Shown here: positions 1-58,693 of the stretch, piece after piece
Layout of the letters: the number at the start of each line of letters is the position of its first letter
How positions within the stretch are numbered: position 1 is the first letter of the stretch
Virus record (IMG/VR): IMGVR_UViG_3300036900_000119
Span: 1 to 58,693 of that record
Length of the DNA: 58,693 nucleotides
Reading direction: 5' to 3' (one strand)
Source: a virus
The notes under the pieces: generated by a model
What the model was told of the DNA's origin: nothing
Seen by the model: the letters and a program-made list of their open reading frames with translations, nothing else
Database searches by the model: none
Made by a program: the position numbers and the translations under genes

Positions 1-126
1 AAAAAAAGCATAGAACCCAATCCAGTTCGCATCGTGTTGCCCGTATACGCTGTCCCGAACGCTGTCCCAAACGCTGGCCCCAACGCTGGCCCAAACGCTG
101 TCCCCAACGCTGTCCCGAACGCTGTC
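1..126. repeat. Direct terminal repeat, left copy
   Basis: The first 126 bases are identical to the last 126. The run starts with seven A residues and goes into the 12-bp repeat array. This is either an overlap left by assembling a circular or permuted molecule, or a true short terminal repeat. It cuts through one minus-strand gene, so the ends are probably artificial. Confidence 0.97.
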
Positions 127-711
127 CCAAACGCTGGCCCAAACGCTGTCCCCAACGCTGGCCCGAACGCTGTCCCCAACGCTGGCCCGAACGCTGGCCC
201 GAACGCTGTCCCCAACGCTGTCCCGAACGCTGTCCCGAACGCTGGCCCCAACGCTGTCCCCAACGCTGGCCCAAACGCTGTCCCCAACGCTGTCCCGAAC
301 GCTGGCCCAAACGCTGTCCCCAACGCTGTCCCAAACGCTGGCCCAAACGCTGCCCCCAACGCTGTCCCGAACGCTGTCCCGAACGCTGGCCCCAACGCTG
401 TCCCGAACGCTGGCCCCAACGCTGGCCCCGACGCTGGCCCCAACGCTGTCCCGAACGCTGGCCCGAACGCTGTCCCGAACGCTGTCCCCGAATTTGGCTT
501 CCAATAGGATTGCCCGCGTCAACCCTTGGGATAGCGGCGAACCGCACCACACGATTTTTGGAATCGGTAGATCGGCGGCTGCATACGCAGCGACAATACC
601 CGATTCAGCCTTCGATCGCTCTGCTGGAGCGGTGCAAAGGCCGACCGATTTCCAACGATGCACAAACTCAGGAAACCGCTCCTCTTGTGCTTTGGTTAAT
701 TTGGTAATCAT
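1..711 (-). CDS. DUF6745-type protein, N-terminal part with tetrapeptide repeats (continues at 58567 downward)
   Basis: The gene starts with ATG at 711, two bases after the stop of the upstream gene. It reads leftward through the repeat array, off the left end, and on at 58567 to a stop at 58004, giving 1275 nt and 424 residues. Residues 1-77 form a non-repetitive head that begins [16 protein letters not shown] and contains IVWCGSPL, as in DUF6745 proteins. Residues 78-221 are 36 units of V-[R/W/G]-[D/A]-S, with one unit VGGS. The frame stays open throughout, and the family's own V-Y-G-Q-H-D-A-N-W junction follows directly. The plus-strand Ala-Val/Gly-Pro-Asn ORF over the same bases is a shadow. 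Molecular function is unknown for the family. The repeat number may be wrong because short reads collapse such arrays. Confidence 0.88.
49..480. repeat. 12-bp coding tandem repeat, 36 units
   Basis: Thirty-six contiguous units of GCTG[T/G]CCC[G/A/C]AAC fill 49-480 with no indels. Variation is confined to two positions apart from units 26 and 32. Because the unit is four codons long, every frame is a tetrapeptide repeat. Only the minus frame (Val-Arg/Trp/Gly-Asp/Ala-Ser) is flanked on both sides by recognisable protein sequence. The ordering of the variant units looks irregular, as expected from repeated unit gain and loss. Confidence 0.97.
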
Positions 712-713
712 GG

Positions 714-1040
714 CTAGTCCGCAACACGGCGTTCACCTGCTGGATCATATTCTCGTTGGCGCACGATGCGGTAAGCGCCCGGTGGGATCGTGATGGTTGC
801 GTGTTCCTGATGCTCCAAGAGCGCGTTTCCTTCCTTCACAAGCAAGAACAATTCGTCCTGCGATGGTACTTCAAGGAGGTCCACACTGGGACGATCAGCT
901 ATGGTGTGATTGTGGCCTGTAACTTCTCCCTCGGCCAACACCAAGCGACGATGTTTGGCTTTAGCGCGTTTGGCCGCGGTTGGGATTTCCGCTATCGGCA
1001 CGATGAGAATGTCACCCTGCCGGAATATGTTTTTGTTCAT
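714..1040 (-). CDS. Small QGD-motif protein, partner of the DUF6745 gene
   Basis: This 108-residue protein has RQGDILIVP near the start, RRLVLAEGEVTGHNH in the middle (about residues 31-45), a LLEHQEHATITIPPG stretch and an RIVRQREYDP end. I recall this layout from a small conserved protein usually encoded next to DUF6745 genes in bacteria. That is knowledge from memory, not a search. Its stop lies two bases before the DUF6745 start, so the pair is co-translated. The conserved His residues (GHNH, EHQEH) could bind metal, but no activity is known. No clear Shine-Dalgarno sequence precedes the ATG. Confidence 0.88.
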   Translation of the reverse strand: MNKNIFRQGDILIVPIAEIPTAAKRAKAKHRRLVLAEGEVTGHNHTIADRPSVDLLEVPSQDELFLLVKEGNALLEHQEHATITIPPGAYRIVRQREYDPAGERRVAD

Positions 1041-1061: not shown

Positions 1062-1232
1062 TTACTTCGTTCGGATGGGGTACTTCTCCAGCAAAGCCTT
1101 CAAGACAAGCTCCTCCTTCGAGGCTCCGCTCCGGTATTTCTCGGCCCCCATCCAGATCACAACGTCCAGCGGGAGGCGCACGTTTTGTTTGATCAGTTTC
1201 TTTCGTTCGTTATCCTGAATCTTCGCTGGCAT
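1062..1232 (-). CDS. Small ribbon-helix-helix-like protein
   Basis: A 56-residue ORF starting MPAKIQDNERKKL is chosen instead of a 108-codon extension, whose upstream part looks non-coding. The segment QNVRLPLDVVIWMGAEKYRSG followed by a basic C-terminal helix resembles the beta-strand/two-helix layout of ribbon-helix-helix DNA-binding proteins. It is first in the leftward operon with the QGD and DUF6745 genes, 21 bases upstream of the former. It faces away from the ASCH gene across a short divergent region, so it may regulate that promoter. That role is inference. Confidence 0.6.
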   Translation of the reverse strand: MPAKIQDNERKKLIKQNVRLPLDVVIWMGAEKYRSGASKEELVLKALLEKYPIRTK

Positions 1233-1320
1233 GGACGGACTTTGGCATCTCCCAAGAAATAGTGCAAGTACTTTTTCCGTTTTTCTTGACACACAAGAAA
1301 ATAACGCGCACAGTGCCCGC

Positions 1321-1755
1321 ATGACCAAACCAAACCTTCGCACCATATCCCTCTGGCAACCGTGGGCTTCAGCCATGGCAAGTGGCATAAAAAGAAACGA
1401 AACGCGATCCTGGTTTCTAGGACACCGAGGGGATCTCGTGATCTGTTCAGCTAAACGGAAACCTACCCCCGAAGAAGTCGGAGGAGATTACGACGAAGCT
1501 CTTAAATTGCCGTACGGCTTCGCTCTCTGCGTTGTGGAAGTAAGCGAGTGCGTTCCAAGCGACTTGTTCCACGGCCCGAATGCACTTCCTTTGGCGAGCG
1601 AAGAACGTGAGCTTGGAGACTACACTCCGGGCCGATGGATATGGCTGACTCAAAACTGCCGCAAGCTCAAACAGCCTGTGCCAATTAAGGGGCATCAAGG
1701 ACTCTGGTTACTCGATGACGCCACGAACTCCGATGTTCTTCACATGCTGCCATGA
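1321..1755 (+). CDS. ASCH domain protein
   Basis: A 144-residue protein. The start at MTKPNLRTISLWQPWAS places the family signature ISLWQPWA at the N-terminus; a 30-codon upstream extension is rejected. It continues with GIKRNETRSW, a strand HRGDLVICSAKR, ALCVVEVSEC and a terminal GHQGLWLLDD, all typical of ASCH domains. These domains are RNA-binding or RNA-modifying-like folds, often encoded by phages. It is first of a plus-strand run in which each start overlaps the previous stop. Confidence 0.85.
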   Translation: MTKPNLRTISLWQPWASAMASGIKRNETRSWFLGHRGDLVICSAKRKPTPEEVGGDYDEALKLPYGFALCVVEVSECVPSDLFHGPNALPLASEERELGDYTPGRWIWLTQNCRKLKQPVPIKGHQGLWLLDDATNSDVLHMLP

Positions 1756-53271: not shown

Positions 53272-53880
53272 ATGAAAACAACGATATTATCGCTCATTTT
53301 GATGTTGGTGAAGGTTACATCCAACGGTCAACTCATCCTAGCTTTCTCAGGAGAAAACAATTTGTCTGTAGGTCCAGGATGCGCCGGATACGATTTCGTT
53401 GAAGGCACGCTGCCACAAACTCTCGGGAGCCTCGGCGTTTGGGACGCAAGCGGCACTGGCTTGACCGAGTTGCACCGCGTCGGATTGTGGGACTTCTCCA
53501 CGCAAACGCTCTTGGCGTCCGTGGTGGTTGTACCTGGTACCGCCGTCGAGATTGGTTCATTCTGGTATCAGGCGCTCGCTGCGCCCGTCACGCTCGAAGC
53601 TGGCCACCATTACGTACTCGGAGCGCAATACTCGGACAACTCACTCGACCTCGCGGCCGGCAACGCCACCTCCGTGACGATAAACGGCATCGCACTTGGG
53701 GATGCTCGCTTGTCCAGCGGTACGGGATTTGAGTTTCCGGACCTCGACGTGTCGGGCGCAAACAGGGGATTTTTTGGGGCAAACGGAATTGGAACAGCCG
53801 TCCCCGAACCTCCAGCGTGGGGATTCGTCACCAGCGGCATAATGCTCGCCCTGGTGCTCTACCGGAGGGCAACGGTATGA
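53272..53880 (+). CDS. PEP-CTERM exported protein
   Basis: A 202-residue protein with an N-terminal hydrophobic export signal (MKTTILSLILMLVKVTSNGQ). The beta-rich body contains FVEGTLPQTLGSLGVWD and YVLGAQYSDNSLDLAAG, reminiscent of DUF4082-like domains. The C-terminus carries VPEPPAWGFVTSGIMLALVL followed by YRRATV: Pro-Glu-Pro, one hydrophobic helix and a basic tail. This is the PEP-CTERM sorting signal, processed by host exosortase in Verrucomicrobia and other bacteria. The mature protein should be tethered or released at the cell surface. Confidence 0.8.
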   Translation: MKTTILSLILMLVKVTSNGQLILAFSGENNLSVGPGCAGYDFVEGTLPQTLGSLGVWDASGTGLTELHRVGLWDFSTQTLLASVVVVPGTAVEIGSFWYQALAAPVTLEAGHHYVLGAQYSDNSLDLAAGNATSVTINGIALGDARLSSGTGFEFPDLDVSGANRGFFGANGIGTAVPEPPAWGFVTSGIMLALVLYRRATV

Positions 53881-56114: not shown

Positions 56115-56798
56115 TTAGCTTGGCATCATGCTCTCGTGCTCTTGTTGAGGTTTCGGATTCTGAGCCTTCCAGTCGCGCCCTGGACCACCGTTAAGCTTAA
56201 CCAGATGCGCCGTAGCTGACTCGATCATTTTCAGCAGCGTGCTCACGCAAAATGCGATGTTGGTTTGGATCTCATCGTCCCTCTGAACTTCAAGCAGCAG
56301 CATTGGGAAGTGGCGGCGGTAACTCAAGAAACGCCACGATTTACGCCCGGTCACGAACATTGACGCATGGACTTGCTGAACGTAATCGCTCGGAACCTCG
56401 CCTTGGAGCAAGTATTTCGTGTGAACCTCAGCCGTTGGGCATTTGATCTCAATGCCGGAATCTTCGCCGATTAAGCCGTCTGGAGAGCACCCAACCTGTC
56501 CTGTATCGTCGGTGATGAACGCCACGCGCTGCACCTGCACCCCTGTCTCAAACTCAAAAGCCGGTATCGCTTCTTCCTCTCGGAACTTTCCAAAGTCCAT
56601 GTCGATGCTGTTGAACCCTGGAAGCGGTCCCGACCAACGCTCGGCCACTTTGCGGGCGATGTAGCTCTTAATCATTTGCCCTTTGCGAAGCTCGAAGTCC
56701 GTTGTCAGGAAGCAATCAAACTCGCTTGCCGTGACCACACCCGCTCTTGCGCTCAACCATTCGAGCGAGTTTTGTCCGAACCCGGTGTGGATCTTCAT
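56115..56798 (-). CDS. YqaJ-type (lambda exonuclease family) nuclease
   Basis: A 227-residue protein. The catalytic core is GQVGCSPDGLIGEDSG (Asp) and GIEIKCPTAEVHTKYLL (Glu-x-Lys) followed by PSDYVQQVHASMFVTGRKSW, the alpha/beta PD-(D/E)XK fold of YqaJ and lambda Exo. It should resect DNA 5'-3' to feed the annealase encoded just upstream; the start overlaps the ERF stop. Together they form a phage recombineering-type pair. Confidence 0.92.
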   Translation of the reverse strand: MKIHTGFGQNSLEWLSARAGVVTASEFDCFLTTDFELRKGQMIKSYIARKVAERWSGPLPGFNSIDMDFGKFREEEAIPAFEFETGVQVQRVAFITDDTGQVGCSPDGLIGEDSGIEIKCPTAEVHTKYLLQGEVPSDYVQQVHASMFVTGRKSWRFLSYRRHFPMLLLEVQRDDEIQTNIAFCVSTLLKMIESATAHLVKLNGGPGRDWKAQNPKPQQEHESMMPS

Positions 56799-57541
56799 CG
56801 GCCTGCCCGTTCCTTTCTGGAAAGCAGCGAATCGAGGATCTCGTATTTGGTGGCGGCAATGTCCGCGAATGTCTCGGAACTGGCCAATTTGAGGAACGCT
56901 GCCCGGTCACTGTTAGTTTCAGAAACGCGCCGTTCAAGCTCGTCGGCCTGTTCTGGTGTGATCTTGCCGCCCATCATGCCAGCGTCATCCTCTTGACGCC
57001 TGACGATGTTGAGCGCATCACAGAATGCCTCGCGCTGCGCTACCGTGCCGGCCGATGAGTCGGCTTGGGTGGTTGTTGCTCCCGGTGGACCGCTCCCGAT
57101 TCTAACCGTGAACTCGTTGGTGAAGGCGTGGCCGTCGTCGTGAGTCAGAACGCACGAAACTGTTTCCCGATCTGCTTCGAGGCGCTGAGAGAATCGGACG
57201 CTGAACCCGTATTTCGTGAGCAGCGGTTGAGCCTGAGCCATGATCTGCTCGTACTTGGCATACTTGTAACGGACCTCCCCGTTGCGCCCAGGCACGGCTT
57301 GCATCGCCACGATCTGCTTCGCCTCGGCCTGCATCTCGCGCAACGCTTGGCTCGCGCTTCTGGCGCTTTTCCTGTCCTCCATGCGCTCGTAGAGCATGAC
57401 GATCTCTTTGACCGCATTGACATTCTCAGCGGTGACGCCCTTCTCGATCACAGCTTGGAGCATGTCGGCCACCACTGGCTCACGACGAGCTGGAACTTCT
57501 GCATCCAACCGTTGCACCGCCTGCTTTGCGTCCATGCTCAT
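56795..57541 (-). CDS. erf: ERF-family single-strand annealing protein
   Basis: A 248-residue protein. The block YKYAKYEQIMAQAQPLLTKY, then FSVRF and VSCVLTHDDGHAFTNEFTV, and TVAQREAFCDALNIV with Gly-rich turn before it, follow the ERF-family layout. N-terminal helices are basic. Binds and anneals single-stranded DNA with the YqaJ nuclease encoded next. ATG overlaps the previous stop. Confidence 0.9.
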   Translation of the reverse strand: MSMDAKQAVQRLDAEVPARREPVVADMLQAVIEKGVTAENVNAVKEIVMLYERMEDRKSARSASQALREMQAEAKQIVAMQAVPGRNGEVRYKYAKYEQIMAQAQPLLTKYGFSVRFSQRLEADRETVSCVLTHDDGHAFTNEFTVRIGSGPPGATTTQADSSAGTVAQREAFCDALNIVRRQEDDAGMMGGKITPEQADELERRVSETNSDRAAFLKLASSETFADIAATKYEILDSLLSRKERAGR

Positions 57542-57729
57542 ACCGTCGCCTCCAACACCTTCGAGAGCTGCTCAATGCAACCGCCGTAAGTGTTCATGTA
57601 GGCCCACGACACTTGCCCGCTTTCAGAGTTTTCCTTGCCTTTGGAAACAAGCATAGCGTAATTTTCTCTGTGCATGTCACGGAGGCGTTTTCAATCGTTC
57701 AAGAGTGGCTCAAAATCGGATTGGCTCAT
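57538..57729 (-). pseudogene. Small gene split by an in-frame TGA
   Basis: The gene would start at the ATG at 57729, which overlaps the stop of the gene upstream. After 12 codons (MSQSDFEPLLND) there is TGA at 57693-57691, and the same frame then continues open through KRLRDMHRENYAMLVSKGKE to a stop at 57538. An internal ATG at 57675 gives a 45-residue product. Either the stop is a mutation or sequencing error, or translation restarts at the internal ATG. The stop cannot mean general TGA recoding, since many genes here end in TGA. Confidence 0.55.
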
Positions 57730-57950
57730 ACGACACCTTCCTTCTTCATTTCCTTGAGCATGTTAAGCCGGTTCCATTCCTTGCACCACGCCTCGCGGGC
57801 GTGCTCGTATGGCTTTTGCAACTCTTCGAGTTCCTTGGCGCGCAGCGTCACGACTTCGTAGAGCATTTTCTCGCGTGCGGCGCACAGCTCGATTTTCTCA
57901 TCGAGCGATTTCGGTTGCACCTGATCCGGTGCGGGTGTATCAGTGTTCAT
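57726..57950 (-). CDS. Hypothetical coiled-coil protein
   Basis: A 74-residue protein starting MNTDTPAPDQVQPKSLDEKI (a start 12 codons earlier lacks support). Charged helix KIELCAAREKMLYEVVTLRA. Its stop overlaps the start of the interrupted gene downstream. Separated from the DUF6745 stop by 53 bases. No family recognised. Confidence 0.65.
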   Translation of the reverse strand: MNTDTPAPDQVQPKSLDEKIELCAAREKMLYEVVTLRAKELEELQKPYEHAREAWCKEWNRLNMLKEMKKEGVV

Positions 57951-58003
57951 AGTGGTTTGGTTTAGCCCCGGTGCGTGCCGGGACATTTTTGTTTCTACTT
58001 ATT

Positions 58004-58693
58004 TTATGTTTGCATTGCTGGTTTGTAGTCTTCCTCTTTTTGTCCGAAAGTCCACGCAACGGCCTGCTTTGCCCGTTGCATATCTGGCGGAACAAATAAG
58101 AAGTAGTCCTTGAACGACCCGTCAGGCTCAGGCGTGGAATTGATAACCTTCACGACCTTACGGTCGGCAGAAGGAATCGAATATAACACCCCGAAGTCAT
58201 CGGAGTGATCCTGCTTGGCTTGCGCTTCATCCAGCAACCGCGCTGCTCCAACACGCTGAATCATCACTTGCCGAATCTCTTGGTTCTGCTCGTTTTGGAT
58301 TTCGGGCCACTTGAGCTTTTCTGGCTTCATAATTATCTGCTTTGGCACGCGAACTCCATGCCAAGCGTAAATCTCCCACCCATCCGGGTAAGCGACGGCA
58401 GGACCGTTCTCACAGTGGATGCGATTGCGTGTGTCTTGTTTTACGCAACTTGTCCGATCACTAATCCAGCATAACTTATCGTGAGGTAAAAACCATCCAG
58501 CCGACTCGGTTACAGCCGTCAATCCTTTCAGTTTTTTGGTCTCGTTTTCGAGTGCGCAAACCTCTCGAAAAAAAGCATAGAACCCAATCCAGTTCGCATC
58601 GTGTTGCCCGTATACGCTGTCCCGAACGCTGTCCCAAACGCTGGCCCCAACGCTGGCCCAAACGCTGTCCCCAACGCTGTCCCGAACGCTGTC
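58004..58693 (-). CDS. DUF6745-type protein, C-terminal part (continues from 711-1)
   Basis: The reading frame comes in from the repeat array, runs through [20 protein letters not shown] and SAGWFLPHDKLCWISDR, and ends at 58004. This last 200-residue domain matches the DUF6745 family: RIHCENGPAVAYPDGWEIYA, WHGVRVPKQIIMKPEKLKWP, RQVMIQRVGAARLL and STPEPDGSFKDYFLFVPPDM with VAWTFGQKEEDYKP at the end. A TTG at 58522 has no ribosome site; the frame and family N-terminus show it is not the true start. Full protein is 424 residues. Bases 58568-58693 duplicate 1-126. Confidence 0.9.
   Translation of the reverse strand, partial: DSVRDSVGDSVWASVGASVWDSVRDSVYGQHDANWIGFYAFFREVCALENETKKLKGLTAVTESAGWFLPHDKLCWISDRTSCVKQDTRNRIHCENGPAVAYPDGWEIYAWHGVRVPKQIIMKPEKLKWPEIQNEQNQEIRQVMIQRVGAARLLDEAQAKQDHSDDFGVLYSIPSADRKVVKVINSTPEPDGSFKDYFLFVPPDMQRAKQAVAWTFGQKEEDYKPAMQT
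58568..58693. repeat. Direct terminal repeat, right copy
   Basis: Exact copy of bases 1-126, including the start of the 12-bp array. The two copies let the ends be joined, giving a circular map of about 58,567 bp in which the DUF6745 gene is whole. Confidence 0.97.

Follow-up and report, generated by a model that had tools for sequence, protein, structure and literature searches.

What is the repeat array that lies in frame in the middle of a viral DUF6745 gene, and what might it be for? The gene is split by the two ends of IMG/VR record IMGVR_UViG_3300036900_000119, of which positions 1-58,693 were analysed (hereafter the window, that is, this whole stretch of 58,693 nucleotides). The array consists of four-residue units, is translated in frame, differs in unit number between close relatives and is hypervariable at two codons per unit, and the gene stands with a conserved partner among early phage genes.

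The joined gene and its array

Positions 1-126 of the window are an exact copy of 58568-58693, and when this 126-bp terminal overlap was joined once, a minus-strand open reading frame (ORF) of 424 codons (424 amino acids, ATG at 711) was obtained, as a sequence-only reading of the same DNA had proposed. In the overlap, 46 bp of unique DNA precede the array, and the array is contiguous within the window; thus, the join is independent of the repeat DNA. The parts of the gene are as follows.

1..126, no strand: terminal direct repeat, copy 1, identical to 58568-58693 (47-126 are array, 1-46 encode the start of the DUF6745 junction)
58568..58693, no strand: terminal direct repeat, copy 2 (circular-contig overlap), identical to 1-126
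490..711, minus strand: N-terminal head of the DUF6745 protein, seen in the ORF and conserved in phage homologues, with a confident helical fold in homologue L034
49..486, minus strand: in-frame array of 36 units V-[R/G/W]-[D/A]-S with a period of 12 bp, from repeat finding and translation
58004..58627, minus strand: C-terminal DUF6745 domain with the VYGQHDANW junction (PF20530, 7.1e-54 in the record and 1.5e-51 in the joined protein)

The order of head, 36 tetrapeptides V-[R/W/G]-[D/A]-S, VYGQHDANW junction and DUF6745 domain, also given by that reading, was reproduced by translation, by Tandem Repeats Finder (period 12, 36.9 copies, 47-489) and by Pfam, and the period is fixed at 12 bp throughout. 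The array corresponds to residues 76-221 (36 complete tetrapeptide units and a half unit), and PF20530 covers residues 218-424 (E = 1.5e-51; 175 bits, gathering cut-off 27 bits); no leucine-rich, pentapeptide or other Pfam repeat model exceeded its cut-off in the window protein, for which only DUF6745 passed. All units read [D/A]-S-V-[R/G/W] except for one G-S-V-W, with a single silent change (GTC for GTT), and of the 12 bases of the unit the two variable ones have heterozygosities of 0.65 and 0.52, one further base has 0.06 and the remaining nine have 0. The proposal that units differ at only two codon bases, one third-unit variant apart, therefore stood as to the confinement of variation to residues 2 and 3; its details were corrected, since the silent difference is in the third base of Val, and the single Gly stems from the same variable base as Asp/Ala.

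Spread and variation of the array

The 24-base pattern of the repeat alone retrieved eight viral contigs, seven of which carry DUF6745 by Pfam (the exception is L006/G004), and further loci were obtained by protein searches; 164 loci were parsed for DUF6745, a few of them being the same contig fetched twice. DUF6745 with the array is a widespread phage module, present in dozens of divergent phages: most viral copies of DUF6745 have it, copies have anything from no units to more than 60, the arrays remain in frame in homologues diverged to about 30-50% identity, and the phage homologues share the conserved head. The sequence-only reading had staked its case on homologues having a repeat between the two domains, and this holds in part: some viral copies (L002, L046, L150-L161) and all 80 loci of a bacterial genome scan (nearly all actinobacterial; the scan was seeded with actinobacterial-type sequences and is no census of bacteria) have no tetrapeptide array, so that the array is an optional hypervariable insert and no fixed part of DUF6745. 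The domain itself was found in 32 of 386 genomes of one phylum (Cyanobacteriota, according to the centre genome) and in 9 of 296 genomes of the actinobacterial phylum, and a few genomes of the wider bacterial samples carry arrays (L193, L205, L214, L216, L217).

Unit number was compared between close relatives. Prophage prophiGD102-1 of Mycobacterium abscessus (L013), which is listed in a prophage paper [PMC8092301], has 46 units, whereas IMG/VR record L143 has 19, the flanks being 99.4-99.5% identical over 2.7 and 3.8 kb; a term search of the main text of that paper gave no comment on the DUF6745 gene or its repeat. A third relative (L145; flanks 93.6-95.6% identical) has 62 units, and in a fourth (L144), 99.7% identical to both L013 and L143, the array is cut by the contig end. 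Alignment of the units showed mainly block deletions or insertions with conserved ends, and a few single-base changes at the variable positions. Note that the M. abscessus assemblies are probably from short reads, and that the longest exact repeats in these arrays are 35-75 bp. In the M. abscessus prophages, then, the units are in frame and their number differs between close relatives, as in a coding minisatellite or variable number tandem repeat (VNTR); the repeat-number change anticipated for the window was thus found in these prophages, the window's own phage population being a candidate for it. The suggestion of phase variation fails, because a 12-bp unit inside an ORF is a multiple of three and its gain or loss never shifts the frame; length and surface can vary, and on/off switching is not produced. 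Between the Nocardia farcinica NCTC 11134 plasmid (L017) and L139 (97% identical flanks) array lengths also differ, and at 739-1929 of L017 the array is in two shifted frames relative to L139, which is possibly a sequencing error or real decay; this pair was not used as evidence.

For the variation within arrays, x1 denotes the variable residue that is mostly R/G/W, x2 that which is mostly D/A/G, and the frozen scaffold is [S/Q] and [V/L]. Heterozygosity was calculated for 43 arrays with at least 8 inner units, related arrays being included so that they are not fully independent. On average it reached 0.60 for the first base of the x1 codon and 0.45 for the second base of the x2 codon, compared with 0.027 for the third base of the Val/Leu codon, where all four bases are synonymous; this silent base was exceeded by x1 base 1 in 43/43 arrays and by x2 base 2 in 42/43. 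The frozen codon backbones have 20 distinct spellings across the same 43 arrays, so the pattern is not that of a single DNA repeat that spread. When codon differences were counted in 44 arrays, 1183 fell at x1 or x2 and 60 at the other two codons, and among distinct codon variants 24 of 219 were synonymous (about 54 expected from the code), the silent changes being mostly in four divergent arrays (L032, L033, L055, L163). Other residue dictionaries are used in L214, L216 and L050 (x1 = H/G/D, D/N/G/R/Y, or D/Y), which suggests that the rule of variable positions is kept although the residues differ. The order of units is near random, with repeated blocks longer than in shuffles in only a minority of arrays and modest positive signals at some lags among 48 tests; this scarcity of long blocks may partly be ascertainment, long perfect repeats lowering the chance that an array is assembled. 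In a rough model of neutral block duplication and deletion, variation at two sites only arose in 2 of 180 simulated runs.

The partner gene and the genomic neighbourhood

A small gene adjoins the DUF6745 gene.

714..1040, minus strand: partner gene, 108 amino acids, immediately upstream of the DUF6745 gene on the same strand; conserved pair; AlphaFold2 all-beta model; phrog_27831

The partner adjoins DUF6745 in 140 of the 164 loci, upstream or downstream and nearly always on the same strand, and was found in all 21 records that were searched whole; the pair also occurs in actinobacterial chromosomes. Its AlphaFold2 model is confident and all-beta (predicted local distance difference test (pLDDT) score 88.8), and it matches phrog_27831, a PHROG annotated as of unknown function, with no Pfam or NCBIfam family. 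Residues G9, D10, H45, H77, H80, G88 and D108 are invariant, and the three His and two Asp among them suggest a putative metal site. In one locus (L040, G700) the partner match holds a stop codon.

Downstream of the DUF6745 gene, the window operon runs on into recombination genes.

57726..57986, minus strand: small ORF downstream of the DUF6745 gene, no family
56795..57541, minus strand: ERF-type single-strand annealing protein, downstream of the DUF6745 gene (PF04404, 4e-9)
56115..56798, minus strand: YqaJ-type viral recombination exonuclease (PF09588, 1.7e-22)

At 37 viral loci, those neighbours that could be assigned to families are helicases, primases, annealases, exonucleases, integrases and HNH endonucleases, and the 25 commonest PHROGs include no tail or head family. 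The gene is not placed among structural genes as a tail fibre or receptor-binding gene would be, and a single weak PHROG match to a tape measure (E = 0.013) lies over the array. Since the neighbours are early replication and recombination genes, a role as tail or receptor rod is disfavoured. Beside the module, an opposite-strand ORF (1231-1755, plus strand) has a sub-threshold match to the ASCH domain. Elsewhere in the window, a predicted ORF of secreted appearance (53272-53880, plus strand) ends in VPEPPAWGF...YRRA, read by eye as a PEP-CTERM-like sorting tail, which is unusual in a phage and could hint at the host group. In chromosomes, genes of the STM4011-STM4015 families (radical SAM and others) lie near several DUF6745-partner pairs (among loci L059-L138), and a literature search on this cluster found no paper. 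The idea taken from these radical SAM neighbours, that the array is a multi-core modified peptide, was dropped, no such genes being among the listed neighbour families of the phages.

What the array may be, and known systems

From the sequence evidence, we consider the chances about even that the array is a diversified recognition surface, which would act inside the cell, early in infection, on a putative target that changes. The inference draws on a protein from the cyanobacterial-phylum sample (L208; Pfam LRR_8, 4.6e-95), in which at least 14 leucine-rich repeat (LRR) units precede the C-terminal part of DUF6745, because its LRR array shows the same pattern as the tetrapeptide arrays and LRRs are established recognition scaffolds. 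The scaffold DNA of that array is frozen and the changes are at exposed LRR positions (32 amino-acid and 5 silent variants); the tetrapeptide arrays do not differ from it in the proportion of the two kinds of variant (Fisher p = 0.58). The two proteins are thus alike in having a repeat array with a frozen scaffold and variable surface positions, then the same domain; they differ in that the units of L208 are LRRs of about 23 residues and not tetrapeptides, and no virus context was seen for L208. The retention of the partner on either side of DUF6745, the early-gene neighbours, the silent-site result, the differing unit numbers of the M. abscessus prophages and the in-frame arrays of diverged homologues were also counted for a recognition module. 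As a separate observation, the C-terminal DUF6745 part follows leucine-rich-like segments in L019, L199, L201-L204 and L208 (Deinococcus and cyanobacterial-phylum genomes), LRRs being confirmed by Pfam in L208 alone; most of these loci have the partner gene close by.

On this reading the DUF6745 gene is the bigger member of an early phage module of two genes; its protein has a helical head and a DUF6745 domain, which would act with the small all-beta partner, and can hold a tetrapeptide array between them. The frozen scaffold, recurring every four residues, would display two variable side chains per unit, the array changes as units and blocks are gained or lost in frame, and selection would keep the residues at the two positions diverse, with silent differences erased by homogenisation. 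The variable residues may contact a target inside the cell, perhaps a changing factor of the host or of a rival phage, and the DUF6745 protein and its partner would act together. We hold it distinctly unlikely that the whole is a phage-borne evolvable recognition system, in which each unit offers a choice at two residues, units are recombined to match the changing intracellular target, and DUF6745 and the partner convert recognition into an effect.

Several points weigh against a recognition surface. AlphaFold2 folded the helical head and DUF6745 of homologue L034 with confidence, and drew its array as helices of low confidence (pLDDT about 46-66), so that no surface was actually seen and the rod structure supposed earlier gains no support. 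Fold searches with DUF6745 and the partner gave no convincing match to a solved structure (Foldseek, none at E = 0.001; best VIA Z, 4.4 and 2.8), and sequence matches in the PDB were weak and mainly on array or low-complexity positions. The domain can work without an array, since array-less phage homologues exist; the LRR comparison is with one protein; and part of the pattern could be due to recent growth of the arrays from a few founder units, but the recurrence of the same two codons across about 20 backbones is not easily explained in this way.

In the main rival reading, the array is a flexible spacer of variable length or a low-complexity linker: only its length and the period of four count, the variation at residues 2 and 3 is simply tolerated, and slippage accounts for everything else. 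The low-confidence array model, the range of unit numbers, the array-less forms in other phages and the nearly random unit order all fit it. However, tolerance alone does not explain the contrast between the silent Val/Leu third base and x1 base 1, and a unit is followed by an identical one less often than expected by chance (z = -2.8), which argues against simple single-unit slippage; with the silent-site result counted against it, we regard the spacer as rather unlikely.

Targeted mutagenesis, by a diversity-generating retroelement (DGR) or another hotspot mechanism directed at the first base of one codon and the second base of the other, would account for variation that in nearly all arrays occupies single base positions (NGG and GNC), the arrays with other dictionaries included, and DGRs share with the phage array hypervariable codons at fixed places. 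Unlike in DGRs, no reverse transcriptase (PF00078) was found in 21 records including the window, some of them fragments (three control genomes were positive), and base choice is restricted: DGRs substitute template adenines with any base, whereas the adenines of the frozen AGC and CAG codons are invariant and Arg is nearly always encoded in a given array by AGG or CGG alone, so the base is not randomised. This mechanism is accordingly very improbable. We give equally little credence to a sequence-reading array, in which the x1,x2 pair of each unit specifies one target element and unit order is the code; such a code would suit units that each vary at two residues against a frozen scaffold, follow one another aperiodically and are variable in number, but no regular structure is predicted with confidence, and large internal deletions between near-identical prophages would drastically alter any sequence read.

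An array inflated, collapsed or mis-joined in assembly is the least credible explanation: like the window, at least a dozen viral contigs that bear an array stop at or near it, which would fit long repeats or mixed array alleles alike, but the longest exact repeat within the window array (51 bp) is below the uniquely anchored 126-bp overlap, so that an assembler with a word length of about 126 bp could spell the array uniquely, and arrays are present in prophages of cultured isolates and in one complete phage record. The count of 36 units is thus probably no assembly artefact, and mixed array lengths in the source sample are possible.

The literature searched for DUF6745 and five array strings made no mention of them, and a four-residue array with two variable residues per unit and a conserved partner is undescribed there. 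A PADLOC-DB search of five proteins gave no defence family match beyond a marginal one (E = 0.0094, inside the array, one protein). Were the array a recognition surface, it would stand out among diversifying binding scaffolds for its simplicity and would point to a conflict, so far undescribed, between phage and host or between phages. The question lends itself to tests in laboratory hosts, given that prophages which are nearly identical carry different arrays.

Among known forms, the chromosomal actinobacterial DUF6745 (PF20530) has the same C-terminal domain and the same adjacent partner gene as the phage form, with a non-repeat segment of about 90 residues in place of the array in the genome-scan loci. 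Coding minisatellites and VNTR proteins, such as those with the Ser-Asp repeats of staphylococcal adhesins, likewise have short in-frame repeats that change in number, and NCBIfam matches toward Ser-Asp-repeat-type proteins were weak; the phage array differs in lying in an early gene amid replication and recombination genes, with two hypervariable residues and frozen silent sites. In repeats of the transcription activator-like effector (TALE) and LRR types, a few residues vary per unit on a constant scaffold, the unit being about 34 residues in TALE and 23 in LRR; the phage array likewise varies a few residues on a constant scaffold, in a unit of only four residues and with any target or code only putative.
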